Below are positions 35,341 to 52,494 of a DNA stretch of 64,000 nucleotides, one piece after another. Location: contig CAIUWR010000024.1 of NCBI GenBank assembly GCA_903902915.1, forward strand, positions 1 to 64,000, written 5' to 3'. Numbering within the stretch: position 1 is the first letter of the stretch; every line of letters starts with the position of its first letter. Made by a program: the position numbers and the translations under genes. The notes under the pieces were generated by a model. The model saw only the letters and a list, made by a program, of their open reading frames with translations. It did no database searches and was not told the origin of the DNA. The DNA comes from an uncultured Hyphomicrobiales bacterium (lineage in GTDB: Bacteria > Pseudomonadota > Alphaproteobacteria > Rhizobiales > Beijerinckiaceae).

Positions 35341-35341
35341 G

Positions 35342-38154: not shown

Positions 38155-38169
38155 TCAATGGCTCCAGTC

Positions 38170-40116
38170 TCAGGCGGACTGCTTCACGCGCATATACCAT
38201 TCAACGAGGCGTCGAACCTGCCGTTCCGTATAACCGCGCGCCATCATGCGCTCGACGAAATCCGCGTGTTTCTTCTCGGTCTCGCTGTCGCGCTTGGAAC
38301 CGAAGCTGATGACGGGCAACAGATCCTCCACTTGCGAGAACATGCGCTTCTCGATCACCTCGCGGATTTTCTCATAGCTTGTCCATGAGGGATTCTTGCC
38401 ATTGTTGTTGGCGCGCGCCCGCAGGCAGAACTTGACCACCTCATTGCGGAAGTCCTTTGGATTGGCGATGCCCGCCGCCTTCTCCACCTTGGTCAGTTCC
38501 TGATTGAGCAGGTCGCGGTCCAGCAACTGGCCGGTGTCCTGATCCTTGAAATCGAAATCCTCGATCCAGGCGTCCGCATAGTTCACATAGCGGTCGAACA
38601 GATTCTGCCCATAGTCGTGGTAGGATTCCAGATAGGCTTTTTGAATCTCATGGCCGATGAATTCCGCATAGCGCGGCGCAAGCTCGGCCTTGATGAACTC
38701 GATATAACGCTTCTCAAGCTCAGGCCCCACCTGATCGCGCCGGATCGCCTGTTCCAGAATATACATGAGATGCACGGGATCGGCGGCCAGCTCCGTGGGG
38801 TCGAAGTTGAATGTGGAGGCCAGCACCTTGAAGGCGAAGCGCGTGGACGTGCCGTCCATGCCTTCGTCTTGTCCGGCGGCGTCTTTATATTCTTGCAGGC
38901 TCTTGGCCTTCGGGTCGGTCTCGCGCAGGCTCTCGCCGTCATAGACGCGCATCTTGGAATAGATGCTGGAATTCTCGTGCTCGCGCAGGCGCGTCATCAC
39001 CGAGAACCGCGCCAGCATTTCGAGCGTGGCGGGGGCGCAGGGGGCGCTGGCGAGTTCGGAGCCGTGGATTAGTTTTTCATAGATCTTCTGCTCCTCCGAC
39101 ACGCGCAGGCAATAGGGCACCTTGATGAGATAGATGCGGTCGATGAAAGCCTCGTTGTTTTTATTCGTCTTGAAGCTGTTCCACTCCGCCTCGTTGGAAT
39201 GGGCGAGGATGACGCCGGTGAAGGGAATGGCGCCTATGTTTTCCGTGCCGATATAATTGCCCTCCTGCGTCGCGGTCAGCAGGGGATGCAGCATCTTGAT
39301 CGGCGCCTTGAACATTTCGACGAATTCGAGAATGCCCTGATTGGCGCGGTTGAGCCCGCCCGAATAGCTGTAGGCGTCGGGATCATGCTGGGCGAGGTTT
39401 TCCAGCTTGCGGATGTCCACCTTGCCGACGAGCGAGGAAATGTCCTGATTGTTTTCATCGCCCGGCTCCGTCTTGGCGATGGCGATCTGGCGCAGGCGCG
39501 AGGGCATCAGCTTCACCACGCTGAATTTCGACAGGTCGCCGCCAGCTTCATCGAGGCGCTTCAGGCACCAGGGGCTCATCAGGCCCGTCAGTTTGCGCAA
39601 GGGAATGTTGAAGCGCGTCTCCAGTTCTTCGCCCATGGTCACGGGATCGAAGAGGCAGAGCGGACTTTCGAAGACCGGGCTTATGTGGCCACCCGCCTTC
39701 AAGGCGTAGATCGGCTGTTGCTCCATCAGCTGCTTCAACCGCTCAGCCAGCGATGATTTGCCGCCGCCCACGGGGCCGAGCAGATAAAGGATCTGCTTGC
39801 GTTCTTCGAGCCCCTGCGCGGCATGGCGGAAATAGGAGACGATGCGCTCCACCGTATCTTCCATCCCGTAGAATTCCTTGAAGGCGGGATAGATGCGGAT
39901 GGTGCGGTTCATGAAGATGCGGCCAAGGCGGGAGTCCTGAGCGGTGTTGATCCGCACCGGTTCGCCAATGGCGTGCAGCAGGCGCTCGGCGGCGCTTGCA
40001 TAAAAGTTCGGGTCTGTCTTGCAGCCCTCAAGAAAATCCGCGATCGACATTTCCGCGTCGCGGCGCGTCTCGTAAGTGCTCGAGTAGCGGGACAGAAGAT
40101 CGGTAGCGAGCGCCAT
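38170..40116 (-). CDS. prkA: PrkA family serine protein kinase
   Basis: A 648-residue PrkA-type protein. An AAA-like ATPase module with Walker A GPVGGGKSS near 106 occupies the first two thirds, and a kinase-like PrkA C-terminal domain the rest. The start at ATG 40116 has caggag upstream; the long upstream open frame does not look coding. It heads the three-gene stress operon with DUF444 and SpoVR. In Bacillus and E. coli relatives, PrkA acts in sporulation or nitrogen/stationary-phase responses, with kinase or protease activity reported. Confidence 0.92.
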   Translation of the reverse strand: MALATDLLSRYSSTYETRRDAEMSIADFLEGCKTDPNFYASAAERLLHAIGEPVRINTAQDSRLGRIFMNRTIRIYPAFKEFYGMEDTVERIVSYFRHAAQGLEERKQILYLLGPVGGGKSSLAERLKQLMEQQPIYALKAGGHISPVFESPLCLFDPVTMGEELETRFNIPLRKLTGLMSPWCLKRLDEAGGDLSKFSVVKLMPSRLRQIAIAKTEPGDENNQDISSLVGKVDIRKLENLAQHDPDAYSYSGGLNRANQGILEFVEMFKAPIKMLHPLLTATQEGNYIGTENIGAIPFTGVILAHSNEAEWNSFKTNKNNEAFIDRIYLIKVPYCLRVSEEQKIYEKLIHGSELASAPCAPATLEMLARFSVMTRLREHENSSIYSKMRVYDGESLRETDPKAKSLQEYKDAAGQDEGMDGTSTRFAFKVLASTFNFDPTELAADPVHLMYILEQAIRRDQVGPELEKRYIEFIKAELAPRYAEFIGHEIQKAYLESYHDYGQNLFDRYVNYADAWIEDFDFKDQDTGQLLDRDLLNQELTKVEKAAGIANPKDFRNEVVKFCLRARANNNGKNPSWTSYEKIREVIEKRMFSQVEDLLPVISFGSKRDSETEKKHADFVERMMARGYTERQVRRLVEWYMRVKQSA

Positions 40117-40477
40117 GTCTGCTCCTGGTGCATCGAATGAGCGAGTTTCCTCGCTCTGTTTCATCGACCGTAGGCATCCGGCGCCTGGGGTTGCGACAGC
40201 TGCGGTACGGCTCCGCTTGGACAACGCCCTCAATGTCTCAAGGTTGCGCGATTCCATCGTTTCGACCAGCCCCAAAAGCCACGGGGCGCGTCGCGCGCAA
40301 CGATGTGCGGCCACCAAATGGCCTTTCGCCATGGTTCTGGCACTCACGATCGCAGAGTGCTGTCGGATCAGGCAAGCTCAAGCTTCGGCGGGGTGCGGAC
40401 GACCGACGATTTTTCAATTTTCAGTGATCAGATGGCGCGCGCGGGGCGCTTTATCAACATGGGAATCGTTTGTTTTG
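40117..40477. other. 361 bp non-coding gap
   Basis: Lies between the start of prkA and the end of the aspartate dehydrogenase gene, both on the minus strand. It must contain the prkA operon promoter. I see no tRNA, repeat, convincing ORF or clear terminator in it. Confidence 0.5.
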
Positions 40478-41308
40478 TTAGATTCGGCTGCGCAGATTCG
40501 CCCATTGCAGCACCTGCGTTGCGACGCTGTAGGCTGTCGTCAGCGAGGTCTTTGGATTATCGTGCGCAGCGCAGCCTTCGATTTTCAGCGCGATGTCCGC
40601 GCAGGCCGAGGTCACGCGAATTTCATGCACATTGCCGGTCGCTGCAGGGTCCGCCACCAGCTTGACCATGGTCGCCTCAAACCCGGCCCCCGCCAGCGCA
40701 AGGGTTGCGGCCACATTGGCGTTCTGCGGATAGTCGATGGCGGCGCCGCGAGCGGTGCCTTGATAAAACACCGTCGCTTGCGTCAAGGCGTCGAGATCCA
40801 GCAGCGCTTCGGCTTTTGTTCCGCGCCAGGCGCGCGGCGGCTTGCGCGACGTATAAGTCACGGCGTCAAGGCCAGACAGTTTCGCCGCCGCCAGAATATC
40901 CAGACCGCCGATGGCGCCATTGGAGAGGAGCAGCTCCCCGCCGTTGGCGGAAGCGGCCAGAAGAGCGGCGTACAAGGCCTCATCCGCAAGCGCGCCGACG
41001 GAGGTGACAAGGAGGTCAGCGCCAGCGCGCAAAATTTTTGCCCCGCAGTCGCGCAGGGCCTCGTGGCCAGCCGCTTCGATGACGAGCAGGGGACGCGCGT
41101 CAAGCAGGGCTTCAACGCTGCTTACGACCTCGCGCGCTCTGGCCAGCTGCGGCCCGGCGCGCTCCAGCATGGCGGCCGCGCGCGTCAGGCCGTTTTCCCG
41201 CGCAAGACAGATGATGGCGTCCAGCGGCCCGCCCAATTCGCGCGCGACGCTTTCAAGGGCGACGGAGGCGATGGCGCCATAGCCGATGACGCCGACCTTC
41301 AGCGTCAC
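40478..41308 (-). CDS. Aspartate dehydrogenase (NadX-like)
   Basis: A 276-residue NAD(P)-dependent L-aspartate dehydrogenase family protein. Seen: Rossmann GVIGYGAIA at 6-14, the central YPQNANVAATLALAGAGF near 180-198, KLVADPAATGNVHEI near 204-218 and DNPKTS near 243. All are well-kept landmarks of the family, which converts aspartate to iminoaspartate/oxaloacetate. Its start overlaps the TPP-enzyme stop by 4 bp, so they are co-translated. In this catabolic setting it may act on another amino acid or imine rather than serve NAD synthesis. Confidence 0.88.
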   Translation of the reverse strand: MTLKVGVIGYGAIASVALESVARELGGPLDAIICLARENGLTRAAAMLERAGPQLARAREVVSSVEALLDARPLLVIEAAGHEALRDCGAKILRAGADLLVTSVGALADEALYAALLAASANGGELLLSNGAIGGLDILAAAKLSGLDAVTYTSRKPPRAWRGTKAEALLDLDALTQATVFYQGTARGAAIDYPQNANVAATLALAGAGFEATMVKLVADPAATGNVHEIRVTSACADIALKIEGCAAHDNPKTSLTTAYSVATQVLQWANLRSRI

Positions 41309-42972
41309 TTCGCGCCTCCCGCTGCGCCTGCGGGCGGACCGCCGAAGGCTGTCGCATAGGGGCCGATGGCGGTCATGTCGACTTCAATGAGATGCGGACC
41401 GGGCGCGGCCATGGCGGCGTCGAAGGCGGTTGCGAAAGTGTTGATGTCGGCGACGCGGGTATGCGGAAGGCCCATGCTCTGCGCCAGCAGGCCGAAGTCG
41501 GGCGTATGCAGTTTGCAGTAGGCGCGACGGCCTTGATATTGCGCATCCTGAATATTCGCGATCACGCCATAGGCGCGGTCATTCATCAACACATAGACGA
41601 TCTCGCAGGCGTTCTCGACGACGGTCGCCAGTTCGCCGATGTTCATGATGGCGCCGCCATCGCCCAGCAGCGACACCGTCTTTGCGCGCGATGCGAAGGA
41701 GGCGCCGATCGCCATGCTGATCCCCATGCCGATGCCGCCGCCGAGCGCATGCACGCCCAGATGGGGCGCCGCCAGCTTCACGTAGCGATTGCCGAAGGTG
41801 GAGTTGCCAATCGTCACATCGCGCACCCAGGGATGCGCCCCGTCATGCACCACGCGGCTCAGATGGTCGGCGAGGACGTCATAGGGGCCAAGGCCCTTCC
41901 CCAGCGCTTGCTCGCCCCGCAGCCGCGCTGCGCCCCAGTCGGCGGCGAATTGCTCGTCCACTGCGAGCTTCTCGGGCAGAAGGCGCAGCAAGGCGTCGAG
42001 GGCCAGTTGCGCGTCGGCATGGATGAATTCATTCACCGCGATGTTGCGGCCGCCCTGACTGGCGTCGGCGTCAATCTGAATCGTCGTGGCGGGCAGACGC
42101 ATCTCATTGTTGCGCGTCTCGTTGCCGCGCAGGCGCGAGCCCACAATGATCATCAGATCCGCGCGGTCATAAAGAGCTTGCGTGTCGGGCGTCATGTTGT
42201 ACGCGCCCAGGGTGCGGGGATGGTCTTCGGGCACGGTGGCGCGGCCATTGGTGCTCGTCACCGCGCAAAAGCCCCGTTCGACAAGTTGCGTCGCTTCGGA
42301 GGCGGCGAGCCGCGCGCCGCCGCCCAGCAGAATGACAGGGCGCTTCGCCGCCCGCACCGCCGCCGCCAGCGCCGCGATCTGCTCCGGCTGCGGCGCCATC
42401 ACGGCGAGGGCGGGGCGCGGATAATGGCTCTGGATGGCGACCGGGCCGCGCTGCACATCCACTGGAATTTCGAGGCTGACCGGCCCGGAGGGCGCCGACA
42501 GCGCGGCGGAGACGGCGGCTTGCAGGGTGGGTATGGTGGCGCGCGGCTCCCAGATGCGGAAATAGGCTTTGGAGACGGCTTTCAGCATCTCGGGCTGTTT
42601 GGGCACGTCATGGATCGCCGCGCGGTCGCGGTCCATGAAGACCGTGTCGATTTGCGTCGTGATATGGAGCACAGGCGAGCCGGCCGTCAGCGCCTCCACC
42701 TGCGCGCCGGCTGCGTTGCCCGCCGCCGTGCCGGTGCTCGTCACGACCACCCCCAATCCCTTCGTTACGCGGGCGAAGGCGTCGGCCATGTTCATGGCGC
42801 CAGCCTCGCCGCGCGCGGGCACGAAGATGATGCGGCCCTGGCGAAGGATCGCGTCCAGAATCGGCATGTTGTGAATGGAGATGACGCCAAAGACATGGGT
42901 GACGCCAATCTCGGCGAGATAGCGCGCGATGGCGTCGCCGACGGGTTCCTGAGCTTTTGCAACGAGGGTCAT
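41305..42972 (-). CDS. Thiamine pyrophosphate-dependent enzyme (acetolactate synthase/decarboxylase-like)
   Basis: A 555-residue TPP enzyme with the three usual domains. The cofactor-activating Glu56 is in ARGEAGAMNMADAFAR. The TPP/Mg motif begins at GDGGAIMNIGEL near 428 and ends at LMNDRAYGVI near 452. The family covers acetolactate synthase, benzoylformate, sulfopyruvate and oxalyl-CoA decarboxylases; nothing here fixes the reaction, and no regulatory small subunit adjoins it. It follows the SDR gene by 9 bp and overlaps the aspartate dehydrogenase gene by 4 bp. Probably decarboxylates a 2-oxo acid arising in this cluster. Confidence 0.87.
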   Translation of the reverse strand: MTLVAKAQEPVGDAIARYLAEIGVTHVFGVISIHNMPILDAILRQGRIIFVPARGEAGAMNMADAFARVTKGLGVVVTSTGTAAGNAAGAQVEALTAGSPVLHITTQIDTVFMDRDRAAIHDVPKQPEMLKAVSKAYFRIWEPRATIPTLQAAVSAALSAPSGPVSLEIPVDVQRGPVAIQSHYPRPALAVMAPQPEQIAALAAAVRAAKRPVILLGGGARLAASEATQLVERGFCAVTSTNGRATVPEDHPRTLGAYNMTPDTQALYDRADLMIIVGSRLRGNETRNNEMRLPATTIQIDADASQGGRNIAVNEFIHADAQLALDALLRLLPEKLAVDEQFAADWGAARLRGEQALGKGLGPYDVLADHLSRVVHDGAHPWVRDVTIGNSTFGNRYVKLAAPHLGVHALGGGIGMGISMAIGASFASRAKTVSLLGDGGAIMNIGELATVVENACEIVYVLMNDRAYGVIANIQDAQYQGRRAYCKLHTPDFGLLAQSMGLPHTRVADINTFATAFDAAMAAPGPHLIEVDMTAIGPYATAFGGPPAGAAGGAK

Positions 42973-42981
42973 GCTGAGCCT

Positions 42982-43773
42982 TCAGATAAAGCGCGAGACG
43001 CCGCCGGAGATTTCGAGCGAAGCGCCGGTGATGTAGGCGGCGGCGGGGGAGGCCAGGAAGACGATGGCGCGCGCCACTTCATCCGGCCTGCCGAGGCGTC
43101 CGGCTGGAATATGTTTGGATTGGGCGAGAGCGGCGAGCCAGGCCTCGCGGCTTTGCGATTTGTCCTCGCGCGCTTCGAAGCGCCGCTCCCATTGCCCTGA
43201 TTCAATCAGGCCCAGCACGACGGAATTCACGCGAATGGCCGGGGCGAATTCGCCCGCCAGCGATTTGAGCAGGCTCTGCACGCCCGCGCGCGCGGCCGAG
43301 GTGCAGACCATGTGCGGCTCCGGCTGATAGGCGAGCAGGGAGTTCACAGCCGTGATGGAGGCCGCGTCGCTCGCGCCCAGCAGGGGCTTGAACGCGCGGA
43401 TGGGCAGAACCTGGCTGAAGAACTTGAGATCAAGCTCCGCGCGCCATTGCTCGTCCGTCGTGGTCTCGAAGGTGGAGACGCGGCCTTGCCCCGCATTGTT
43501 GACCAGCATGTCCGCGCGGCTGCGCCATGCGGCGACCGCCTGCGCGAAGGCCTGCACCTCCTCCGGTTTCGTCACGTCGCAACGCTTGGCGAGAATGCGG
43601 CCCGCGCCCGCCTGTTCGGCGAAGGCGGCGCGCGCCTGTTCAAGCCGCGCTTCGTCGCGCCCGCAGAAGGCGACATCGGCGCCTTCGTCCAGAAAGCTGC
43701 GCACGCAGGCCAGCCCTATGCCTGATGTTCCGCCGGTGACGATGGCGACGCGCCCGGCCAATGCGAGATCCAT
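42982..43773 (-). CDS. SDR family oxidoreductase with altered active site
   Basis: A 263-residue short-chain dehydrogenase. NAD(P) motif TGGTSGIG at 13-20, NNAG at 92-95, Ser145 in the catalytic-Ser position. The expected YxxxK is replaced by Thr158-Ser-Ala-Ala-Arg162, so the usual Tyr and Lys are missing. The C-terminal GRLGRPDEVARAIVFLAS and a GGVSRFI tail are kept. A subgroup of SDRs is known with TSAARAG at this site, so it is probably a true subfamily rather than a mutation. Start at ATG 43773 with gggagg upstream. It lies between the cupin and TPP-enzyme genes. Confidence 0.85.
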   Translation of the reverse strand: MDLALAGRVAIVTGGTSGIGLACVRSFLDEGADVAFCGRDEARLEQARAAFAEQAGAGRILAKRCDVTKPEEVQAFAQAVAAWRSRADMLVNNAGQGRVSTFETTTDEQWRAELDLKFFSQVLPIRAFKPLLGASDAASITAVNSLLAYQPEPHMVCTSAARAGVQSLLKSLAGEFAPAIRVNSVVLGLIESGQWERRFEAREDKSQSREAWLAALAQSKHIPAGRLGRPDEVARAIVFLASPAAAYITGASLEISGGVSRFI

Positions 43774-43815
43774 GGTGCCTCCCAAGGCGCGCTGAGCGGC
43801 GCCCAATAGCTCAAG

Positions 43816-43834
43816 GCGGGGCTGCGCGCCCCGC
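43816..43834 (-). terminator. Intercistronic hairpin after cupin gene
   Basis: A 7 bp perfect stem (GCGGGGC/GCCCCGC, loop tgcgc) between the cupin stop and the SDR start on the minus strand. It may attenuate or stabilise the transcript, since transcription probably continues into the SDR gene. Confidence 0.4.
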
Positions 43835-43842
43835 TGCGCCGC

Positions 43843-44394
43843 TCAGGCCTTGTTGCGCTTGATCTTCGAAAGCGGATGGTCGGGCGGATAGCTGGGCGTC
43901 TCGGGCTTGGTGCTGCCGATCATCACGCACATCAGCGCCTCTTCGCGGCCCTCGTTCACAAGCCCGCGATAGACGCCGGGGGGCACGGAGATGACGTCGC
44001 GCTCCTTGAGGATGATGTCCACATGCTCGCCCAGATGCTCGATCATGATGCGGATGCGCTCGCCGCGCATGATGAAGAACACCTCTTCCGCGTCGGTGTG
44101 CAGATGCAGCGGTCCCTCGCAACCGGCGGGCAGGACCATGGTGGAGAAGGTGAAATGTTCCGCCGGAATGGAGTTGTTGTCGCTGGCCACGCCCGTGCCG
44201 CCGGTGCCGATGTAGCGCATCTGGGCGCGGCGGTATTTGGGGTCATAGTCCGCCTGAAACTTGAGGGCGTTCCAGTCCAGTTCGCGCGTTTCGTGACGCG
44301 CCACGCGGGTTTCAAGCCATTGGGAGAGATTCTTGCCCTGCGGGATCTTGACGTCCTGCGGCATGATTTCAGGCATGTTCGCGTGGTCGCTCAT
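43843..44394 (-). CDS. Cupin domain-containing protein
   Basis: A 183-residue single-cupin protein. The metal-site region is PLHLHTDAEEVFFIMRG near 96-112, and the second cupin motif is at VISVPPGVYRGLVNEG near 134-149. The first motif has HLH plus Glu, suited to a divalent metal. It resembles small dioxygenase- or sugar isomerase-like cupins, with no specific assignment possible. First gene of the minus arm, divergent from the small-protein operon, so the palindrome at 44483-44503 probably controls it too. Confidence 0.8.
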   Translation of the reverse strand: MSDHANMPEIMPQDVKIPQGKNLSQWLETRVARHETRELDWNALKFQADYDPKYRRAQMRYIGTGGTGVASDNNSIPAEHFTFSTMVLPAGCEGPLHLHTDAEEVFFIMRGERIRIMIEHLGEHVDIILKERDVISVPPGVYRGLVNEGREEALMCVMIGSTKPETPSYPPDHPLSKIKRNKA

Positions 44395-44482
44395 CGGGTT
44401 CTCTCCATCCGTGTTCGTCAGGCATGACGCCGCCGTCGAAATCGACTTTACAAACCTTAATCCAGCCCGTAGCCTGTTGCAA

Positions 44483-44503
44483 ATACGAAATGCTGTTTCG
44501 TAT
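44483..44503. promoter_or_regulatory. Perfect 21 bp palindrome, likely operator
   Basis: An inverted repeat ATACGAAA/TTTCGTAT with a 5-base centre (TGCTG). It lies 20 bp upstream of the GTG start of the plus-strand operon, in the divergent region between the cupin and small-protein genes. The length and symmetry fit an IclR-type operator, and an IclR gene ends the plus operon at 49985. It is AT-richer than its surroundings. Confidence 0.65.
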
Positions 44504-44522
44504 CTGAAACATGGGAGAAGTC

Positions 44523-44855
44523 GTGACTCAGGACGTGATTCAGGATTCCATTCTTCTGACCGTGCTTCTCAAACACGATCAGTCGAACAATCTTGACGCC
44601 GTGCAGACGAAGCTCAAGGACGCTGACTGGTGGGAGCGGTTTCCGCCCGAAGGCGTTGAAGTGGTCAGCTGGTATGTGGCCATGGGCCTCGGTCAGATCG
44701 TCACATTGCGCGTGCCGCCGGCAAGGCTCGCGGCCGTGAATGTTGAGTTGGAGCGCTCCGCCTGGGGCGTCTTCCGCACCGAATGCTATCCAGCCTATGA
44801 TTTCGCTCCTGTGCGCGACATGATCCGCGAACGTGTGCGGCAAGGAGGCAAGTGA
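44523..44855 (+). CDS. Small alpha/beta protein of unknown function
   Basis: A 110-residue protein I do not recognise by name. Strand-helix alternation (SILLTVLLKHDQ, LDAVQTKLKDADWW, VEVVSWYVAMGLGQIVTLRVPP, LAAVNVELERSAWGVFRTECYPAYD) suggests a ferredoxin-like or dimeric alpha-beta barrel, such as stress-responsive A/B barrel or muconolactone isomerase-type proteins. The GTG start at 44523 is preferred, with GGGAG about 5 bp upstream; an ATG at 44511 has no such site. It begins the plus arm and its stop overlaps the next start. Position just before a Rieske oxygenase suggests a helper or a small isomerase. Confidence 0.6.
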   Translation: MTQDVIQDSILLTVLLKHDQSNNLDAVQTKLKDADWWERFPPEGVEVVSWYVAMGLGQIVTLRVPPARLAAVNVELERSAWGVFRTECYPAYDFAPVRDMIRERVRQGGK

Positions 44856-45079
44856 TGAAGCCGAGCCCCCAGTATCTTGAAGCGCACCAGACGCGCCAGC
44901 GCGCGCCGACAGACTATGAAAACCTGCTCGCCGACGCCCTCGAACAGGCCTTCGCGCAAGGGATCGACGAGATCGAGCCGCTGGTGGCGCGGCTCAACCG
45001 CGATTGCGTTCCATCGCCGGGCGGCAAGCCCTGGACGGAGGAATTGTTCGCGGCTGAAATGCAGCGCCTGGGCGCCTGA
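44855..45079 (+). CDS. Small recombinase-like helix-turn-helix protein
   Basis: A 74-residue protein, largely helical. YENLLADALEQAFAQGIDEIEPLVARLNRD is followed by VPSPGGKPWTEELFAAEMQRLG, which resembles the C-terminal DNA-recognition piece of serine recombinases (gxxtxxGkxWt). There is no catalytic recombinase domain, so DNA integration is unlikely. The ATG overlaps the previous stop (TGATG) with aggagg upstream. It may be a protein-interaction or regulatory module of the oxygenase operon. Function unknown. Confidence 0.6.
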   Translation: MKPSPQYLEAHQTRQRAPTDYENLLADALEQAFAQGIDEIEPLVARLNRDCVPSPGGKPWTEELFAAEMQRLGA

Positions 45080-45093
45080 CGAGGGAACGTGTC

Positions 45094-46110
45094 ATGACCG
45101 CCATTTCTGAGACAGCCATCGAAGACCTGCTCGAACAGGGCGTCCGCAATATCTGGTACGCGCTGTGTCCGTCGCATTTTGTCGGCGACACGCCGATTTC
45201 GCTGCGCCGTTGCGGCTACAAGATGGCGCTTTGGCGCGGGTTGGACGGCGCGGTTCATGCGCTGGAAGATCATTGCCCGCATCGCGGCGCGCCGCTCTCC
45301 ATGGGCATTCCCATGGATGACCGCATCGCCTGCGGATATCATGGCGTGCAGGTGGACAAGAATGGCGTGGCGGTGTCCGTGCCTGGCGCCCCCGGTTGCG
45401 CGCTGGAAGGCCGCAAGGCCACCCGCACCTTCCCCATCGAGGAAGCTGCGGGCATGATCTTCGCCTATATCGGCGACAAGCTGCATCCCGAACCGCCGCC
45501 GCTCGTGCTGCCCGAGCAGCTCACCTCGCCTGAATACAGTTCCTTTCTGTGCTACGCCGAATGGGGCGGCGATTATCGCTATGTGATCGACAATGTGATG
45601 GACCCGATGCACGGGACGTTCCTTCACAAGCAATCCCATTCCATGTCCTTCGGCGACACCCGCGCGGAATTCGACATCCGCGAGACCGACACCGGCTTCA
45701 TCTTCGAAAAGCAGGGCCAGCGGAACGTCAATTTCGATTGGTCGGAGTGGGCGGACACCGGGCTGCATTGGCTGCGGCTGGAAATTCCCTATCCCAAGAC
45801 CGGCGGTCCGGGCGGCAATTTCCACATCATCGGCACCTATACGCCCATCGGCAAGACGATGTCGGCGGTGGTGCATTGGCGTTGCCGCAAGGTCAGCGGC
45901 TGGCGGCGCGACACATGGCGCTTCCTTTACAAGAACAGGCTGGAAGCGCGCCACTGGCGCGTGCTGGAGCAGGACCGCGTGATGCTGGAGCAATTCGAGC
46001 CCGGCGCCAATCGCCGCGAAATGCTCTATCAGCATGACAAGGGCCTCGTGCGCGCCCGCAAATATCTGCGCAACAAGGCGCAGGCGCAGTTAGAGGCGCT
46101 CAATGGCTGA
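45094..46110 (+). CDS. Rieske 2Fe-2S aromatic oxygenase (VanA-like, alpha only)
   Basis: A 338-residue oxygenase. The Rieske ligands are Cys61-x-His63 (HCPHRG) and Cys80-x2-His83 (CGYHG). The mononuclear iron site is Asp170/His173/His178 in DNVMDPMHGTFLH. The short single-subunit form resembles vanillate O-demethylase, phenoxybenzoate and carbazole-type oxygenases that use a separate reductase. No reductase is present in this operon. It lies 14 bp after the 74-residue HTH-like gene and overlaps RidA by 8 bp. Substrate likely contains nitrogen, judging from the RidA neighbour. Confidence 0.87.
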   Translation: MTAISETAIEDLLEQGVRNIWYALCPSHFVGDTPISLRRCGYKMALWRGLDGAVHALEDHCPHRGAPLSMGIPMDDRIACGYHGVQVDKNGVAVSVPGAPGCALEGRKATRTFPIEEAAGMIFAYIGDKLHPEPPPLVLPEQLTSPEYSSFLCYAEWGGDYRYVIDNVMDPMHGTFLHKQSHSMSFGDTRAEFDIRETDTGFIFEKQGQRNVNFDWSEWADTGLHWLRLEIPYPKTGGPGGNFHIIGTYTPIGKTMSAVVHWRCRKVSGWRRDTWRFLYKNRLEARHWRVLEQDRVMLEQFEPGANRREMLYQHDKGLVRARKYLRNKAQAQLEALNG

Positions 46111-46528
46111 TCTTGTCGCGCGCCGGATCCACGCGCCATCCCTGCCTGAAGCGCCCGGCGCCACATGGTCCAACGCGCTTGTCATCGGCGACGAAATATC
46201 AATGTCTGGCGTCACCGCGCGCGGCGCCGATGGGCGCGCCATCGGCGGCGACAGCCTGCGGGACCAGACGCTGGCGATCTTCCAGCGCATCGAGACGCTG
46301 GTGCGCGCCGCTGGCGGCGTCCGTGGCTCCATCTACAAGCTTGTGATCTATGTCACCGACATCGCCCGCAAGGACGAGGTGAACGCCGCGCGGCGGGCGT
46401 TCTTCGCGTCCGCTTTTCCCTGTTCCACGCTGGTTGAGGTGAAGGGGCTGGTTTTTCCCGATCTTCTCGTGGAGGTTGACGCCTTCGCCAATCTGCGCGT
46501 GAATCTCAACGCGCTTGCGGAGGCCTGA
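46103..46528 (+). CDS. RidA/YjgF family protein
   Basis: A 141-residue RidA-family protein. Beginning with WSNALVIGDEISMSG, it has DQTLAIFQRIETLVRAAGG near 53-71 and the C-terminal KGLVFPDLLVEVDAFA. The family hydrolyses reactive enamines and imines, with a conserved Arg in YVxDxxxrk-type contexts; the end of this one resembles the catabolic-cluster subgroup more than housekeeping RidA. It overlaps the oxygenase gene by 8 bp and is followed by an ABC ATPase, so it surely belongs to this pathway. Confidence 0.87.
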   Translation: MADLVARRIHAPSLPEAPGATWSNALVIGDEISMSGVTARGADGRAIGGDSLRDQTLAIFQRIETLVRAAGGVRGSIYKLVIYVTDIARKDEVNAARRAFFASAFPCSTLVEVKGLVFPDLLVEVDAFANLRVNLNALAEA

Positions 46529-46529
46529 C

Positions 46530-47312
46530 ATGTCCGCCATCCGCCTCTCATTCCAGAAGGTCACCAAGCGCTTCGCCTCCCGCAAGGGCGTGGAGCCGGT
46601 GACGGCTGTTCAGGATCTTACGTTCGATGTGGCTGATGGCGAGATCGTCTCCATCATCGGACCATCGGGCTGTGGCAAAAGCACTTTGCTCAACATGGGG
46701 TCGGGCCTCGATCCGGCCACGCTTGGCGAAGTCTATGTCGACGGCGAATTGGTGACTCGGCCCAACCGCCATGTCGCCTTCATGCTGCAAAAGGATCTCT
46801 TGCTGCCGTGGCGCACCATTCGCGAGAATGTGGAGTTCGGGCTCGAAATTCAGGGCGCGCCTGCGCGTGAGCGGCGCGACCGCGCGGTGGAGCTTTTGAA
46901 GAAATGCCGACTGCCGGATTTCATCAATCACTATCCCCATCAATTGTCAGGCGGCATGCGCCAGCGCGCGGCGCTTGCGCGCACGCTGGCGGTCGATCCG
47001 GCCGTGCTTTTGATGGACGAGCCTTTCTCCGCGCTCGACGCGCAGACCAAGATGGTGCTGCAACAAGACCTCGGCCGCACCCTCGCCGAGGCGAAGAAGA
47101 CGGCGCTGTTCGTCACCCATGATCTTGTGGAGGCGATTGCGCTGTCGCACCGTGTGCTCGTGATGAGCGACCGTCCCGGACGGATCATCCGCGAGATCGT
47201 GATCGACATCCCCGACCACGGCAACCCGATGGCGCGCCGCAAACATCCCCATGTGGGCGGCTATATCAATGAACTGATGGATCTTCTGCATATTGAAGAC
47301 GCCGTGGCCTGA
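46530..47312 (+). CDS. ABC transporter ATP-binding protein
   Basis: A 260-residue ABC ATPase with Walker A GPSGCGKST near 45, signature LSGGMRQRAALART near 139, Walker B LLMDEPFSALD and switch VTHDLVEAI. The start at ATG 46530, one base after the RidA stop, has ggagg upstream. It belongs to the nitrate/sulfonate/taurine importer group and forms a full system with the binding protein at 47338 and permease at 48381. Confidence 0.88.
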   Translation: MSAIRLSFQKVTKRFASRKGVEPVTAVQDLTFDVADGEIVSIIGPSGCGKSTLLNMGSGLDPATLGEVYVDGELVTRPNRHVAFMLQKDLLLPWRTIRENVEFGLEIQGAPARERRDRAVELLKKCRLPDFINHYPHQLSGGMRQRAALARTLAVDPAVLLMDEPFSALDAQTKMVLQQDLGRTLAEAKKTALFVTHDLVEAIALSHRVLVMSDRPGRIIREIVIDIPDHGNPMARRKHPHVGGYINELMDLLHIEDAVA

Positions 47313-47337
47313 CGGCGTCGTGAACTGGAGGCTCGTA

Positions 47338-48312
47338 ATGAAGTTGTTTCGCAAAACCTTCGCATCGGCCATCGTCGGCCTCTCGCTCGCAGCCGCGCCC
47401 GCGCTTGCGGAAGACGTCACCTATCTGCTGCCCGCGCCCGCCTCGCTGCCCGCCTTTGGGCCCTGGATGGTCGCGCAGCAGCGCGGCTATTTCAAAGACG
47501 AGAATCTCAACGTGACCTTCCAGGTCGCGCGCGGCGGCGTCGACGTGGCCAAGCAGGTTGGCGCGGGCAATGCGGTCGTGGGCGGCGCCATCGGCGACAC
47601 GCCCATTCTGGTGCGCGCCAACGGGGTGCCGGTGAAAGCGGTTGCGGTGCTGGGCGGTCGCTCGTTGATGCAGCTTGTCGTCAACAAGGACATGGGCGTC
47701 CATTCGGTGAAGGATCTGAAAGGCAAGGTGGTCACGACCATCTCCTATCAGGACACGACTTTCTTCGCGCTGCTGGGCATGCTCGCCACCCAGGGCATGA
47801 CGAAGGATGATGTGAACGCGCAGGCCGTTGGCCCCGTGAACATCTGGAAGCTTTTCGCCGCAGGCGAGGCCGCCGCCATGGCCTCCGTGCCGGACTGGAC
47901 CTATTACGCCCGCGCCGCGAATCCCAAGCTCAACATCGAGATCATCCCCTCCGACACGCTCTTCAAGAGCATGGCGCAGGCGATCGTCGTCTCGGATGAA
48001 ACCATTCAGAAGAATCCGGAGCTGGTGAAGCGCATCGTGCGCGCCACGTTGAAGGGCCTGAAGGCGATCATGGACGACCCCAAGGCCGCCGCAGCGGACT
48101 ATGTGAAGATCGTGCCGGAAAACGCGGGCAAGGAGGCGGAGGTCGCGGAGATCTTCAAGGGCTTCTCCGAATATGTCTACGCGGGCCAGAAGACGCTGGG
48201 CGAGATGGATGAGCAGCGTCTTTCCGAATTGCAGGATTTTTACCTGAAGCAGGGGATCATCCAGCAGAAGTCGCCGGTGAAGGATCTCTACACCAACCAG
48301 TTCGTTCAGTGA
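47338..48312 (+). CDS. ABC transporter substrate-binding protein (NMT1-like)
   Basis: A 324-residue exported receptor with a Sec signal peptide (MKLFRKTFAS...ALAE, about 23 residues). VTYLLPAPASLPAFGPWMVAQQRGYFKDENL opens the mature domain, and GNAVVGGAIGDT contributes to the ligand site. Start at ATG 47338 with tggagg upstream. It follows the ATPase by 25 bp, and a strong hairpin lies between it and the permease, so it may be made in excess of the membrane subunits, as is usual for binding proteins. Confidence 0.87.
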   Translation: MKLFRKTFASAIVGLSLAAAPALAEDVTYLLPAPASLPAFGPWMVAQQRGYFKDENLNVTFQVARGGVDVAKQVGAGNAVVGGAIGDTPILVRANGVPVKAVAVLGGRSLMQLVVNKDMGVHSVKDLKGKVVTTISYQDTTFFALLGMLATQGMTKDDVNAQAVGPVNIWKLFAAGEAAAMASVPDWTYYARAANPKLNIEIIPSDTLFKSMAQAIVVSDETIQKNPELVKRIVRATLKGLKAIMDDPKAAAADYVKIVPENAGKEAEVAEIFKGFSEYVYAGQKTLGEMDEQRLSELQDFYLKQGIIQQKSPVKDLYTNQFVQ

Positions 48313-48319
48313 GCTGCGA

Positions 48320-48357
48320 GGCGCGCCGCTGCGTGGAAGCGGCGCGCCTTTGATTTT
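48320..48357 (+). terminator. Rho-independent-like hairpin within the ABC operon
   Basis: An 11 bp perfect stem (48320-48330 with 48338-48348, GGCGCGCCGCT/AGCGGCGCGCC) followed by TTTGATTTT. It lies directly after the binding-protein stop and before the permease. Partial termination would raise the ratio of binding protein to permease. Confidence 0.7.
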
Positions 48358-48380
48358 CCTCTTCAGAGGCCGCGCCCATC

Positions 48381-49175
48381 ATGTCAGCCGATTTCAGCGA
48401 TCCCACCACACGCAACATGACCCTGCTCAGCGCGGGGCTTTTCGTCGCGTTTCTGGCGGCGTGGGAATGGTTGCCGGGGGCCATGCACATTCCCGCTTTC
48501 ATCATTCCGCCGCTCTCGAAAGTGTGGAGCGAGTTCCTGCGCATGCTGGGGCATGAGCGGCTGATGTTTCACACCGGGGTTACGGCCTTGCAGGTGTTGA
48601 TCGGCTTTGTGCTGGGCATGTTTCTGGGGATGCTGGTGGGTTTTCTGCTCGGCATGTCGCCCACAGCCGAATTCGTGCTGTCGCCCTATATTCTGGCCTT
48701 GCAGATCGCGCCCAAAGTCGCATTCGCGCCGCTGTTCGTGATCTGGTTTGGCTATACGGTCTATCCGAAGATTCTGGTGGCGGTGCTGATCGTGTTCTTC
48801 CCGATCATGGTGAATGTGCTGGGCGCCGTGCGCTCCATTGATCCTGACATTGTGCGGCTGGCGCGCTCCTTCACCGCGAACCGCTTTCAGGTGTTCCGGA
48901 TGGTGGAGTTTCCCGCCTCCCTTGCGCCGCTCTTTGCGGGTCTGCGTATCGCCGCGACGCTGGCGGTGATCGGCGTCGTGGTGGGTGAGCTGGTGGGCGG
49001 CAACACGGGGCTCGGCTACCTTCTGACCTTCGGCGAAGGCGCGGGCAATACGGCCATGGTCTTTGTCGCCATCATCATGCTGACCTTGATCGGCATCGCG
49101 CTTTATGGCGCCATCGTGCTGGTGGAAAACCGGGTGCTGCATTTCCTGCCTGCGCGTGATCGGCGCGCTGCGTGA
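48381..49175 (+). CDS. ABC transporter permease
   Basis: A 264-residue inner-membrane permease of the BPD_transp_1 family, with about six helices. The EAA-type loop is near ARSFTANRFQVFRMVEFPASL (154-174), followed by GLRIAATLAVIGVVVGELVGG. It forms the importer with the ATPase at 46530 and the receptor at 47338. A short gap of 7 bp separates it from the hydrolase gene. Confidence 0.88.
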   Translation: MSADFSDPTTRNMTLLSAGLFVAFLAAWEWLPGAMHIPAFIIPPLSKVWSEFLRMLGHERLMFHTGVTALQVLIGFVLGMFLGMLVGFLLGMSPTAEFVLSPYILALQIAPKVAFAPLFVIWFGYTVYPKILVAVLIVFFPIMVNVLGAVRSIDPDIVRLARSFTANRFQVFRMVEFPASLAPLFAGLRIAATLAVIGVVVGELVGGNTGLGYLLTFGEGAGNTAMVFVAIIMLTLIGIALYGAIVLVENRVLHFLPARDRRAA

Positions 49176-49182
49176 GGGCGAC

Positions 49183-49998
49183 ATGCTGACGACGCGCACC
49201 ATCGCGACCTCGCAAGGGGCGGTGACTTATCTGGAAGCGGGGCAGGGCGCGCCGCTCGTGCTGCTGCATGGCATAGGCTCCGCCGCGCGCTCGTTCAGCG
49301 CGCAGATGGCCGCCTTCGCGGACCGCCGCGTCATAGCCTGGAATGCGCCCGGTTACGCAGGCTCTGCGCCGCTCGCGCCTGCTGCGCCCGATGCAGGCGA
49401 CTACGCGTGTGCGCTCGGCGCTTTCCTTGACGCCCTTGGCGTTGCGGACTGCGATCTCTTCGGCCATTCGCTGGGCTGTCTCATGGCGGCGCGCTTCGCC
49501 GCCGATCATCCCCAGCGCGTGGCGAGCCTGACGCTGGCGAGCATCGCGGCCGGTCACGCGCGGCTGGAGCCGCAGGAACGCGCGCGCCTGCTCGACGGGC
49601 GCCTTGGCGACGTTGCGGCCCTTGGTCCGCGCGGCATGGCGGAAAAGCGCGGCCCGCGTTTGCTGGGCCCGGACGCTTCGCCCGACCAAATCCGCGCGGT
49701 GGTGGAGACGATGGCTTGCGTCGATCCCGATGGTTATGGTCAGGCTGCGCGGATGCTCTCCAGCGGCGACATTCTGGCCGATCTGGCGCGATTGCCAGCC
49801 TCGATCCCCGTGCGGATCGTCTTCGGCTCCGCCGACGTCATAACCCCGCCCGAGGTCAACCGGCGCGTGGCGGCGGCCTTCGGGCGCGCGGAAGTGGTGG
49901 AGATTCCGCGCGCTGGCCATGCGCTTTATGTCGACCAGTCCGGCGCTTTCAATGCGGCGCTCGCCGCCAGCTTGCGGAGAAATGATGAACGAGGCTGA
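49183..49998 (+). CDS. Alpha/beta hydrolase
   Basis: A 271-residue alpha/beta hydrolase. The nucleophile is the Ser in GHSLGC near residue 89, the acid the Asp in GSADVITPP near 218, and the base the His in RAGHALYVD near 246. HGIGSAA near 26-32 forms the oxyanion hole. It resembles meta-cleavage product and enol-lactone hydrolases. Start at ATG 49183, seven bases after the permease stop. Its end overlaps the IclR start by 14 bp. Likely hydrolyses a ring-fission or ester intermediate of this pathway. Confidence 0.8.
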   Translation: MLTTRTIATSQGAVTYLEAGQGAPLVLLHGIGSAARSFSAQMAAFADRRVIAWNAPGYAGSAPLAPAAPDAGDYACALGAFLDALGVADCDLFGHSLGCLMAARFAADHPQRVASLTLASIAAGHARLEPQERARLLDGRLGDVAALGPRGMAEKRGPRLLGPDASPDQIRAVVETMACVDPDGYGQAARMLSSGDILADLARLPASIPVRIVFGSADVITPPEVNRRVAAAFGRAEVVEIPRAGHALYVDQSGAFNAALAASLRRNDERG

Positions 49999-50833
49999 AT
50001 CTTTGCCAGAAGGCCGCTATGTCGTGCCCGCGCTGGCGCAGGGGCTGAGCGTCCTGGCGCTTTTCTCACGCGAGACGCCGGTGCTGGCCGCGCCCGAGAT
50101 CGCGCAGCGTCTGTCTTTACCGCGCACGACCGTATTCCGGCTTTTGCACACCCTGCATCTGATGGGTTATCTCAAGCGCTGCGAGGATGAGCGCAGCTTC
50201 TCGCTGGGGCCAGCGATCCTGAACCGTGGCTTCACCTATCTTTCCTCGCTGGACATCGTCGAAATCGCGCAGCCGATCTTGCAAAAGCTGCGTGACGAGA
50301 CGGGCATGTCCGCCCATCTTGCGGTGCGCGATGGACGTGAGATCGTTTATGTGGCGCGGGTGGCGGCCCGCACGACCGTGGCGAGCACCGTGCAGATCGG
50401 CACGCGGTTTCCCGTCCACGCCACCGTCATGGGCCGTATGATCCTGTGCGAATTCACCGATCAGGCCCTGGCCGAATTGTTCCCGGACGATGCGCTGCCC
50501 GCCTTCTCCGAGCAGACGCCAGCGACGCGCGCGGATTTGCAGGTGATGCTGGCGCAGGATCGGGCGCGCGGTTTTGTCATCAGCCAGTCCTTCTTCGAGC
50601 GGGGCGTCAGCTCCATCGCCGCACCCGTGCGGGACGGCGCGGGCGCCATCGTCGCGGCCATCAACGTCACCTCGGTTGACTCCTATGTCCCAGTGGAGGA
50701 GATGCAGGGCGCGTTGAAGGACGCGGTCCTCGCGGCCTCCTTCGAATTGACCCGGTGGCTGTCGGCGGCTCCCGGCGACTCGCAGCGGCGGATCGGCGGA
50801 ACGCGCGTCCGGCGGACGGCTGAGACTGTTTGA
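49985..50833 (+). CDS. IclR family transcriptional regulator
   Basis: A 282-residue regulator. The winged HTH lies in the first 90 residues (APEIAQRLSLPRTTVFRLLHTL as the recognition region) and the IclR effector domain in the rest (FPVHATVMGRMIL, SQSFFERGVSSIAAPV). The start at ATG 49985 has GGAG 5 bp upstream; the neighbouring ATG at 49982 is too close. It closes the plus operon, so it is expressed with the genes it probably controls, most likely through the palindrome at 44483-44503. Confidence 0.87.
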   Translation: MNEAESLPEGRYVVPALAQGLSVLALFSRETPVLAAPEIAQRLSLPRTTVFRLLHTLHLMGYLKRCEDERSFSLGPAILNRGFTYLSSLDIVEIAQPILQKLRDETGMSAHLAVRDGREIVYVARVAARTTVASTVQIGTRFPVHATVMGRMILCEFTDQALAELFPDDALPAFSEQTPATRADLQVMLAQDRARGFVISQSFFERGVSSIAAPVRDGAGAIVAAINVTSVDSYVPVEEMQGALKDAVLAASFELTRWLSAAPGDSQRRIGGTRVRRTAETV

Positions 50834-50859
50834 CGTCGCCAACGCAATCTGGAGGCGCG

Positions 50860-52494
50860 ATGCCGGGCGGACGACCATCGAAATGGGACATCGTCGCGGG
50901 CCTCTCCGTGGCTGGGCTGCTGCTGCCTGAAGCGATCGCTTACGCCTCCATCGCGGGGCTCGCCCCGCAACATGGCGTCTTTGCTGCGATAGCGGGGCTG
51001 TTGGTCTATGCGCTGGCGGGCCGCAGCCGCTTCGCCATCGTGGCGCCCACAGCCTCCTCCGCCGCGATTCTGGCCGCCGCCGCCGCTTCGGCGCAAACGA
51101 TGCAGACGCCGGATCAACGCCTTGCGCTGGCGGCCGGGGCGGTGCTGCTGACCGGCGCGTTCTTTGTCTGCGCGAGCATCGCGAGGATGGGGGCGCTGGC
51201 GCAGTTCATTTCGCGCCCGGTCTTGCGGGGCTTCGCCTTCGGGCTTTCGGCCGTCATCGTGCTGCGGCAGGCGCCGGCGCTGACGGGGTTGAGGTTCGAG
51301 TCCCATGATCCGGGCGGCATCCTGTGGGATCTGGCGTGGCGGCTGTGGGAGGTGAACGGCGCCAGCCTCGTATTGGGCTTTGGCGCGCTTGCGCTGCTGC
51401 TTGCGCTGCGACGCTGGCCCTGGGCGCCGGGCGCCTTCGTGGCGCTCAGCGCTGGCGTGGCGGGCGCGTTGCTTTTCGATCTCGACGGCTATGGAGTCGC
51501 CCGGGTCGGATATCTGGACGTCACGCCCGTGGCGCCCGGCTTGCCCGATCTGTCGCTGGAGGCCTGGGAGACGCTGGCGCGCGCGGCCCTGCCGCTGGTG
51601 CTGATCCTTTTTGCGGAATCCTGGGGCTCCATGCGCAACCTTGGTCTGCGCCATGGCGACCGGCTGGATCCGCAGCGCGAGCTTTTCGCCCTCGGCCTCG
51701 CCAATATCGCCTCCGGTCTTCTGCGGGGTTTGCCGGTCGGGGCTGGCTTTTCCGCCTCCTCCGCCAACGAGGCGGCGGGGGCCATGAGCCGGGTCGCTGG
51801 CGTGGCGGCGGCGCTGTGCATGGTGGCGCTGGTGGCGCTTTTCGCCCCATGGGTCGCGCTGATTCCCCAGCCGGTGCTGGCGGCGGTGGTGATTTCGGCG
51901 GTTCTGCCCGCGTTGGACCCGCGTCCGCTGCTGAAACTATGGCGCATCGGCCGGGATCAATATGTGGCGCTCGCGGCGGCCGTCGGCGTGCCGCTGTTTG
52001 GCGTGGTGGACGGCATGGTGCTGGCGGTCGCCCTGTCGGTTGCCGCAACCCTTGGGCGCCTCGCCAGCCCGCGCATCGAGCGTCTGGGGCGCTTGCCCGA
52101 CAGCCATGCCTTCGTGGACCTCGCAGCCCAGCCAGAGGCGGTGACGGATCCGCGCATCCTCGTGGTGCGGCCCACTGAGCCCTTGTTTTTCGCCAATGCC
52201 GAGACGGTCTTCGCCGGGCTGAGCGAGCCGTCGCTCGCCGTCGGCGTGCTGGTGGTGATCCTCAGCCTCGAAGACAGCAGCGATCTGGACTCCACCGCCC
52301 TCGAGGCGCTGATTGAATGGGACATGCTGCTTGGCGGGCAGGGGCGCATTCTGTTGCTCGCGCGCTGCAAGCAACATGTCCGCGACCCCTTGCTGCGCGC
52401 CGGAGCCGCGCTCGCGAGGCCCGGCCGCAGCTTCTGGAGCGTGGACGAGGCCTTCGAGGCCGCGCTGGGTCTGGTGGCGGCGCCCCGCAAATAA
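50860..52494 (+). CDS. SulP family inorganic anion transporter with STAS domain
   Basis: A 544-residue SulP/SLC26-type transporter. About 10-14 membrane segments occupy residues 15-400 (start of the family's region LLLPEAIAYASIAGL, then FAIVAPTASSAAIL). A cytoplasmic STAS domain follows (ILVVRPTEPLFFANAE, VILSLEDSSDLDSTALEAL). Family members carry sulfate, bicarbonate or dicarboxylates. Start at ATG 50860 with ggagg upstream; a TTG at 50830 overlapping the previous stop is less likely. It may supply sulfate or carboxylate and need not belong to the oxygenase cluster. Confidence 0.85.
   Translation: MPGGRPSKWDIVAGLSVAGLLLPEAIAYASIAGLAPQHGVFAAIAGLLVYALAGRSRFAIVAPTASSAAILAAAAASAQTMQTPDQRLALAAGAVLLTGAFFVCASIARMGALAQFISRPVLRGFAFGLSAVIVLRQAPALTGLRFESHDPGGILWDLAWRLWEVNGASLVLGFGALALLLALRRWPWAPGAFVALSAGVAGALLFDLDGYGVARVGYLDVTPVAPGLPDLSLEAWETLARAALPLVLILFAESWGSMRNLGLRHGDRLDPQRELFALGLANIASGLLRGLPVGAGFSASSANEAAGAMSRVAGVAAALCMVALVALFAPWVALIPQPVLAAVVISAVLPALDPRPLLKLWRIGRDQYVALAAAVGVPLFGVVDGMVLAVALSVAATLGRLASPRIERLGRLPDSHAFVDLAAQPEAVTDPRILVVRPTEPLFFANAETVFAGLSEPSLAVGVLVVILSLEDSSDLDSTALEALIEWDMLLGGQGRILLLARCKQHVRDPLLRAGAALARPGRSFWSVDEAFEAALGLVAAPRK

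Follow-up and report, generated by a model that had tools for sequence, protein, structure and literature searches.

A divergent gene cluster of an uncultured Hyphomicrobiales bacterium is one version of a widely conserved aromatic catabolic block, possibly for kynurenate-type acids

Introduction

Which compound would a bacterium import and break down with a Rieske oxygenase, a thiamine pyrophosphate (TPP) enzyme and an aspartate dehydrogenase (AspDH) encoded within a few kilobases of each other? The question is raised by two divergent gene arms in an uncultured freshwater Hyphomicrobiales bacterium of the Beijerinckiaceae (GenBank assembly GCA_903902915.1, contig CAIUWR010000024.1, positions 1 to 64,000; the whole of this 64,000-nucleotide stretch is called the window below). 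The original prediction, made from the DNA letters, described the arms as a cluster for import and ring oxygenation of a probably nitrogen-containing compound. Here we describe the gene content of the cluster, its conservation, its conserved catalytic residues and a conserved candidate operator. The cluster is the window's own version of a real, widely conserved aromatic catabolic block. We propose, with a probability of about 0.48, that its arms form one IclR-controlled regulon for a quinoline-type N-heteroaromatic acid, most likely kynurenate or a relative such as xanthurenate.

Kynurenate is 4-hydroxyquinoline-2-carboxylate. Taniuchi and Hayaishi reportedly described a bacterial kynurenate (quinoline) pathway in Pseudomonas fluorescens in 1961 and 1963, and we know of no genes for it. 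In particular, the activities kynurenate 7,8-dioxygenase, dihydrodiol dehydrogenase and 7,8-dihydroxykynurenate 8,8a-dioxygenase lack genes to our knowledge, and if the proposal is true the block would supply sequences for all three. It would also link kynurenate turnover to widespread opportunists and to soil and marine bacteria, make turnover in gut, lung, insect and ocean testable from genomes, and explain the presence of AspDH in a catabolic block. In open-access full text we found no gene assignment for the kynurenate route or for this block, in keeping with the earlier remark that no described pathway is known to have this gene set; the block itself proved to be widespread. Even with another substrate, it would represent a conserved aromatic pathway without assignment in the literature searched. 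Kynurenic acid is described as a metabolite of tryptophan that has effects on neurons and on immunity (PMC11354673, PMC4938989).

The divergent cluster and its encoded proteins

Examination of the window sequence and searches with Pfam and NCBIfam models placed all 13 genes where the original prediction had listed them. The minus arm comprises AspDH, the TPP enzyme, a short-chain dehydrogenase/reductase (SDR1) and a cupin; the plus arm extends from orf110 through the IclR gene, and 116 bp separate cupin from orf110.

40478–41308, minus strand: L-aspartate dehydrogenase family protein, NadX-like (NF009828, 247.8 bits, cut-off 177; PF01958)
41305–42972, minus strand: TPP-dependent 2-oxo-acid decarboxylase-like enzyme, PRK07064 (NF005470, 724 bits, cut-off 495)
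42982–43806, probable start 43773, minus strand: SDR1, PRK07062 (NF005468, 389.8 bits, cut-off 266)
43843–44394, minus strand: single-domain cupin, 183 residues (PF07883)
44483–44503, no strand: perfect 8-5-8 inverted repeat ATACGAAA-N5-TTTCGTAT, followed by TGAAAC; candidate IclR operator for both arms
44511–44855, plus strand: orf110, small conserved protein (114 residues from ATG, 110 from GTG 44523)
44852 or 44855–45079, plus strand: HTH_62 recombinase-like helix-turn-helix protein (PF20552, 108.6 bits)
45094–46110, plus strand: Rieske non-heme iron oxygenase alpha subunit (PF00355, PF19112)
46103–46528, plus strand: predicted RidA-family imine/enamine hydrolase (above cut-off for PF01042; TIGR00004 46.9 bits, below its cut-off of 106)
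46515 or 46530–47312, plus strand: ABC importer ATPase (PF00005)
47293–48312, probable start 47338, plus strand: NMT1/SsuA-like substrate-binding protein (PF09084, 127.7 bits)
48381–49175, plus strand: ABC importer permease (PF00528)
49105–49998, probable start 49183, plus strand: alpha/beta hydrolase, enol-lactonase-like (PF00561; NF051488 114 bits, below cut-off)
49919–50833, probable start 49985, plus strand: IclR regulator, PcaR/PcaU/PobR-like (PF01614; TIGR02431 193.9 bits, below its cut-off of 284.75)

Common expression had been read from gene overlaps of 8, 4, 1 and 14 bp. The 8-bp overlap of Rieske with RidA and the 4-bp overlap of AspDH with the TPP gene are independent of start-codon choice, while the others depend on it: orf110 and HTH_62 overlap by 4 or 1 bp, the hydrolase and IclR genes by 14 bp provided that IclR starts at 49985, and RidA either overlaps the ATPase gene by 14 bp (TTG 46515) or lies 1 bp from it (ATG 46530). 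Such overlaps suggest co-transcription and do not prove it. That the cluster is more than a chance arrangement follows from the conservation of the block across genera.

Conservation of the block

The nearest named relatives, among the best 80 of 577 confirmed relatives kept from a scan of named genomes, are metagenome-assembled genomes of Beijerinckiaceae and Rhizobiales. Close orthologues of the TPP gene (at least 63% identity) occur in 17 of 61 genomes searched, including the window's own 3.68-Mb genome and one fragmented copy. At 9 of the 16 relatives' loci that were fetched (L021–L027, L029, L030), the minus arm, as AspDH-TPP-SDR with cupin present or absent, stands directly back to back with orf110/HTH_62-Rieske. 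Three of the other seven end at contig borders (L028, L034, L036) and four are rearranged or lack the Rieske gene (L031–L033, L035). Joint conservation of the arms in other genomes, which had been put forward as one check on the cluster, is borne out in nine relatives. In the window the two arms share one candidate operator.

Further loci came from annotated plasmid-collection records and from an even draw of 398 Pseudomonadota genomes, 15 of which, the window's own included, have the TPP family above cut-off. Gene content was counted at the 73 of 107 loci with at least 8 kb on either side of the TPP gene, with identity cut-offs of our choosing; the 34 loci with short flanks were excluded. The 73 are a convenience sample: 51 loci belong to the 80 closest in TPP similarity, 9 come from the plasmid collection and 13 from the draw. 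At least two contigs are counted twice in it (L084/L200, L111/L199), and two loci (L193, L194) are scored as Rieske-free although the gene lies just outside the stretch.

From these loci a nine-enzyme set emerges: the Rieske oxygenase, SDR1 and a second SDR (SDR2), an extradiol dioxygenase of the VOC superfamily, the TPP decarboxylase, an aldehyde dehydrogenase (ALDH), AspDH, the hydrolase and the cupin. All nine are present at 32 of the 73 loci, and the set recurs in the alpha, beta and gamma classes of proteobacteria as well as on one Streptomyces plasmid. Gene by gene, SDR1 and the hydrolase are found at 71 loci each, IclR at 69, AspDH, VOC and ALDH at 64 each, SDR2 at 57, HTH_62, which typically adjoins the Rieske gene, also at 57, Rieske at 56, cupin at 55, a flavin adenine dinucleotide (FAD) monooxygenase at 34, orf110 at 11 and RidA at 9. 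The block often includes a redox partner, either ferredoxin with an FAD reductase, flavodoxin with an FAD protein, or a VanB-type reductase. Klebsiella, Acinetobacter and Caballeronia have self-contained blocks, and all enzyme classes plausible for a kynurenate pathway are also found at L205, L206 and L207. At the last of these, on a linear plasmid of Streptomyces chartreusis, HTH_62 and a VanB-type reductase accompany all nine enzymes, and IclR was not seen there; nine genes on an actinobacterial plasmid suggest transfer between phyla. The block is not rare, being present in Acinetobacter, Klebsiella, Caballeronia and many alphaproteobacteria.

Conserved catalytic residues

The predicted active sites are conserved along with the genes. 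Of 71 Rieske proteins, at least 97% retain the cluster ligands C61, H63, C80 and H83 and the iron-site residues D170, H173 and H178, and both family motifs, CxH...CxxH and DxxHxxxxH, are present. The nearest solved structures are DdmC, SxtDIOX and CarAa. Carbazole, vanillate and dicamba Rieske oxygenases share fold and metal-ligand motifs with the window protein, but its similarity to DdmC is low (79 bits over half the length), and their genes stand in other genetic contexts.

The two-domain VOC protein of the relatives keeps H141, H196, E247, H182, H228 and Y237 in at least 97% of 85 proteins, all six aligning with active-site positions of homoprotocatechuate 2,3-dioxygenase (1f1r). We take the first three to be the His-His-Glu iron triad and the others to be the second-sphere His/His/Tyr, and with these residues the protein has the predicted active site of a type I extradiol dioxygenase. 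AspDH exceeds the cut-off of the subfamily model NF009828 and falls under those of the other (equivalog) AspDH models; the protein was aligned to 1h2h and 1j5p, and at least 97% of 89 cluster members retain its N226 and H228. By curated model and conserved catalytic residues, the window protein is a predicted member of the L-aspartate dehydrogenase family. In the TPP enzyme E56, presumably with a cofactor role, is invariant (14/14 sequences). The cupin conserves H97-H99-E103, and a fourth histidine was not seen in alignments of 76 and 25 members. Its sequence has no match among solved structures at E 0.01; a fold search with its predicted model (mean pLDDT 73) brings up the cupin family at large, with germin and Ni-quercetinase among the top hits. 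For orf110 there is no Pfam match. Its model (15 sequences aligned, window copy included; 14 in the model, mean pLDDT 82) has a ferredoxin-like fold, with no Protein Data Bank match under E 0.001.

Proposed pathway and substrate

The acid would be imported by the NMT1-type ABC system and cis-dihydroxylated on its carbocycle by the Rieske oxygenase. SDR2, encoded elsewhere in the window's genome, would dehydrogenate the product to a catechol, and extradiol cleavage, by VOC in the relatives and by a paralogue at best in the window's genome, would leave a pyridine ring that bears a 2-oxo-acid side chain. This chain would be reduced by SDR1, the proposed side-chain reductase, decarboxylated by the TPP enzyme and then oxidized as the aldehyde. 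The remaining dihydroxypyridine would be opened by the cupin and the alpha/beta hydrolase; hydrolytic or oxidative opening of 4,6-dihydroxypicolinate could give iminosuccinate and a five-carbon acid, the iminosuccinate being captured either by AspDH as aspartate or by RidA as oxaloacetate and ammonia. Such a scheme would find a place for every conserved enzyme and would lead close to central metabolism with no need for CoA or aldolase steps. We infer the substrate, the order of the steps and the roles of SDR1, SDR2, the cupin, the hydrolase, RidA, orf110 and HTH_62.

The classical kynurenate route consists of dihydroxylation, dihydrodiol dehydrogenation, extradiol cleavage, reduction, decarboxylation and aldehyde oxidation, the order predicted from the gene set; two of the genes are missing in the window copy. 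The TPP enzyme and ALDH would fit the decarboxylation and aldehyde-oxidation steps. In kynurenate, N1-C2(COOH)-C3-C4(O) forms an aspartate skeleton that is retained in the 4,6-dihydroxypicolinate ring, which would explain AspDH in the block. A kynurenate-type quinoline acid is our best single guess for the substrate, close to an even call; that the substrate is some N-heteroaromatic acid is likely.

VOC, SDR2 and ALDH in the relatives' blocks make dihydroxylation, extradiol cleavage and decarboxylation likelier than demethylation by a VanA-like enzyme. With SDR2 at 54 of 56 Rieske loci and VOC at 64 of 73 loci, simple demethylation of a methoxy-aromatic was set aside as the main interpretation, and with it a reading of the VanA-like Rieske enzyme as a single demethylation step. 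The prediction of a catabolic cluster for import and ring oxygenation was supported, and the nitrogen-containing aromatic substrate is likely, given AspDH at most loci and a molybdenum hydroxylase trio beside one copy, with the window showing only part of the set.

The closest family models also allow a side-chain-first route, in which an amino-acid-like aromatic would be converted by AspDH oxidation, RidA, the TPP enzyme and ALDH to an aryl acetate, then attacked by the Rieske enzyme or FAD monooxygenase and VOC. The best models for VOC are homoprotocatechuate and catechol 2,3-dioxygenases and ALDH lies near HpaE (all below cut-off), and benzoylformate decarboxylase is among the solved relatives of the TPP enzyme. 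The dehydrogenase, however, passes the aspartate dehydrogenase subfamily cut-off and keeps its Asn/His pair, and the isomerase, hydratase and aldolase of a meta pathway are not annotated in the blocks inspected, making this route very improbable. Nicotinate and aminophenol routes were set aside since the annotation of the blocks inspected shows no genes for them, no search having been aimed at these routes, and homarine because the literature on it shows no such gene set among the matches listed.

Several observations weigh against a kynurenate pathway. The best model for SDR2 is pyridoxal 4-dehydrogenase, below cut-off, and not a dihydrodiol dehydrogenase. AspDH is absent from 9 of the 73 loci, and a Rieske match at E 1e-50 is missing in 9 of 50 cluster-positive genomes. 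Sulfatase and TRAP importer genes stand beside marine copies without explanation, and the molybdenum trio occurs at one locus only, its best solved match being 4-hydroxybenzoyl-CoA reductase. Tryptophan dioxygenase (kynA) is present in 27 of 49 cluster-positive genomes, and none of the 24 genomes with both genes placed links kynA to Rieske (22 on another contig, 2 about 1 Mb apart; other kyn genes and aminotransferases were not searched). In the window's genome, the cluster-type VOC was not found (at best 43% identity with one type and a partial 33% match with the other), nor was an ALDH orthologue (best 29%); several genus mates likewise lack VOC and ALDH, leaving the proposed route incomplete there, and the extradiol paralogue that might step in also occurs in VOC-bearing genus mates. 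Pseudomonas aeruginosa presumably carries the block, since PA3503–PA3511 have the gene order of L192, and kynurenate is nonetheless reported to accumulate to 100 µM in rich medium in P. aeruginosa CHA without kynU (PMC4938989).

In Acinetobacter baumannii, A1S_0956–0958 (annotated as AspDH, ALDH and acetolactate synthase), with the same gene order as L205, are reported to rise jointly on mucin (PMC5757984).

Replacement of AspDH by RidA has weak support, with RidA at 3 of the 9 loci without AspDH versus 6 of the 64 with it (p 0.08, post hoc).

Among characterized systems, the Lum operon for lumichrome and riboflavin also serves N-heteroaromatic catabolism and is described with a TPP decarboxylase, a xanthine-oxidase-type hydroxylase, Rieske and extradiol dioxygenases and a cupin (PMC12746152). 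Compared by description only, it differs in its two-subunit TPP enzyme and Rieske protein and its P450, and the word aspartate does not occur in the excerpt available (PMC12746152); the lumichrome pathway was rejected for this different enzyme set. Reductive amination activity is reported for a Klebsiella and a Delftia L-aspartate dehydrogenase in a paper that covers such enzymes of Klebsiella, Delftia, Ralstonia and P. aeruginosa (PMC5554190). The AspDH of the K. pneumoniae cluster (L206), possibly distinct from the assayed Klebsiella protein, is 40% identical to the window's.

A possible second entry enzyme and the molybdenum trio

A survey of open reading frame families, rich in antisense frames, served solely to identify the families of the FAD monooxygenase, the sulfatase, the TRAP importer and the reductase. 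The FAD monooxygenase, nearest to tropone 2-monooxygenase and 6-hydroxynicotinate 3-monooxygenase, stands at 15 of 15 truly Rieske-free loci (13 distinct contigs) versus 19 of 56 Rieske loci, and some genomes with a Rieske-free locus carry Rieske elsewhere. Most of the nine Rieske-less genomes keep it, some with a TRAP importer and sulfatase. It is possibly another entry hydroxylase, for example for xanthurenate. As a core step it was rejected, not being annotated in the Klebsiella and Acinetobacter stretches and adjoining an intradiol-like gene in the window's own genome, and it is consequently treated as an accessory or other entry step. The fuller proposal, in which this block encodes the bacterial breakdown of kynurenate, the FAD monooxygenase is a second door for xanthurenate and AspDH recovers the ring nitrogen last, is tentative and falls somewhat short of an even chance.

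The same catabolic logic might instead serve another fused or substituted N-aromatic acid (quinoline, indole-derived or pyridine), with AspDH and RidA handling an imino acid product. The family evidence speaks for dihydroxylation, extradiol cleavage, 2-oxo-acid decarboxylation and an aspartate-type product without fixing the ring, and the existence of Rieske-free copies with FAD monooxygenase, many of them next to a TRAP importer and some next to a sulfatase, suggests that there are several entry substrates. Few aromatics are known to give a 2-oxo acid that needs decarboxylation together with a four-carbon imino acid. Kynurenate would, and we consider another acid of this kind unlikely.

At L032 (8297–9403, also L055), an FAD monooxygenase gene lies directly after the TPP gene, the usual place of AspDH in the genus, and AspDH was not found at that locus. 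On a Vibrio nigripulchritudo plasmid (L117, 19241–20325), unannotated homology to the FAD monooxygenase is split into two pieces that lie in different frames. Sulfatase genes stand near the block at L081, L088, L104 and L105, at Rhodobacteraceae loci such as L072, L084, L111, L112 and L116, several directly after a TRAP gene, and in small genomes of SUP05/Thioglobus type.

Quinaldate is oxidized to kynurenate by a molybdenum hydroxylase-type enzyme. In Caballeronia NK8, plasmid pNK84 carries a second Rieske-TPP-VOC set followed by a three-subunit molybdenum hydroxylase trio (L210, 13287–22518), whose solved kin are, in descending order, 4-hydroxybenzoyl-CoA reductase, 6-hydroxypseudooxynicotine dehydrogenase, CO dehydrogenase, quinoline 2-oxidoreductase and nicotinate dehydrogenase. 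The ferredoxin and HTH protein accessions of this second set are identical to those of the full upstream set (L211), and an SRPBCC protein is encoded along with the trio.

The version in the window

The window's subtype is the orf110-HTH_62-Rieske-RidA module. Caballeronia M1242 has the same module (Rieske 64%, orf110 75% and RidA 52% identical to the window) beside a VanB reductase and an SDR2-cupin-hydrolase-SDR1-TPP-AspDH-ALDH-VOC set. Mapped on the Rieske tree, the RidA label takes 7 changes, below all 500 shuffles (mean 12.2) and far from a single clade.

VOC is absent from the window cluster. Elsewhere in the genome there is an SDR2 orthologue (contig C49, 66%), an FAD monooxygenase orthologue (contig C78, 60%) and an extradiol paralogue on contig C41, which has all six active-site residues and is 42% identical to one VOC type, compared with 24% between the two VOC types. 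Replacement of the cluster VOC by this paralogue is possible on these residues. Paralogues of 38–44% occur in the VOC-less genus mates checked (G003, G015, G016, G027, G028, G032) and equally in VOC-bearing ones (G001, G006, G021, G023, G030), so that the extradiol paralogue is no specific replacement for VOC. As the window's own VOC, the C41 gene was a candidate weakened by this distribution and by the second VOC type.

The missing VOC and ALDH orthologues, here and in several genus mates, could mean that this lineage has a reduced, re-purposed cluster in which an N-substituted acid is attacked by the Rieske enzyme, together with RidA, through monooxygenation or dealkylation, and VOC and ALDH are unneeded. 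The Rieske family includes the dealkylating DdmC and NdmA, and orf110-HTH-Rieske-RidA moves as a module. However, Caballeronia M1242 retains SDR2, ALDH and VOC alongside the same module, and the window's genome retains the SDR2 orthologue and the extradiol paralogue with its six residues; re-purposing appears improbable beside the proposed pathway for a quinoline-type acid.

On C78, the FAD monooxygenase gene lies beside a gene resembling, by eye, an intradiol (catechol or hydroxyquinol 1,2-) dioxygenase (L170, 10185–12428). Another FAD monooxygenase in the window itself (1152–2342) is 40% identical to the cluster-associated one.

A candidate operator and neighbouring genes

The inverted repeat in the divergent gap is the sole site in the window at up to 3 mismatches (0.01 expected), and TGAAAC after it is a candidate third half-site. 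PcaU and PobR operators consist of a palindrome plus a third half-site by the target promoter. Both arms share one candidate operator, to which the IclR regulator would bind. Applied to 108 loci, this rule finds a site no more than 350 bp ahead of an annotated cluster gene in 14 of them, and two further loci (L201, L202) carry one about 25 bp upstream of a ferredoxin gene; another 7 matches fall in other places, and a single shuffling of the loci produced 5. As a predicted site, the operator is clear in the window's genus and in Klebsiella-type copies, and most other loci have no such support.

Downstream of the IclR gene lies one further reading frame, which, like the inverted repeat, does not figure in the original prediction:

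50830–52494, plus strand: SulP-family anion permease (PF00916)

The frame begins 4 bp inside the IclR gene at TTG 50830, with an alternative ATG at 50860, and the permease is possibly co-transcribed with the cluster. Among the loci compared, a SulP gene adjoins IclR only in the window and its nearest relative (L021/L037). On the other side, a PrkA serine kinase gene (38170–40347) lies just upstream of the cluster, with more tandem minus-strand reading frames beyond (34410–40347).

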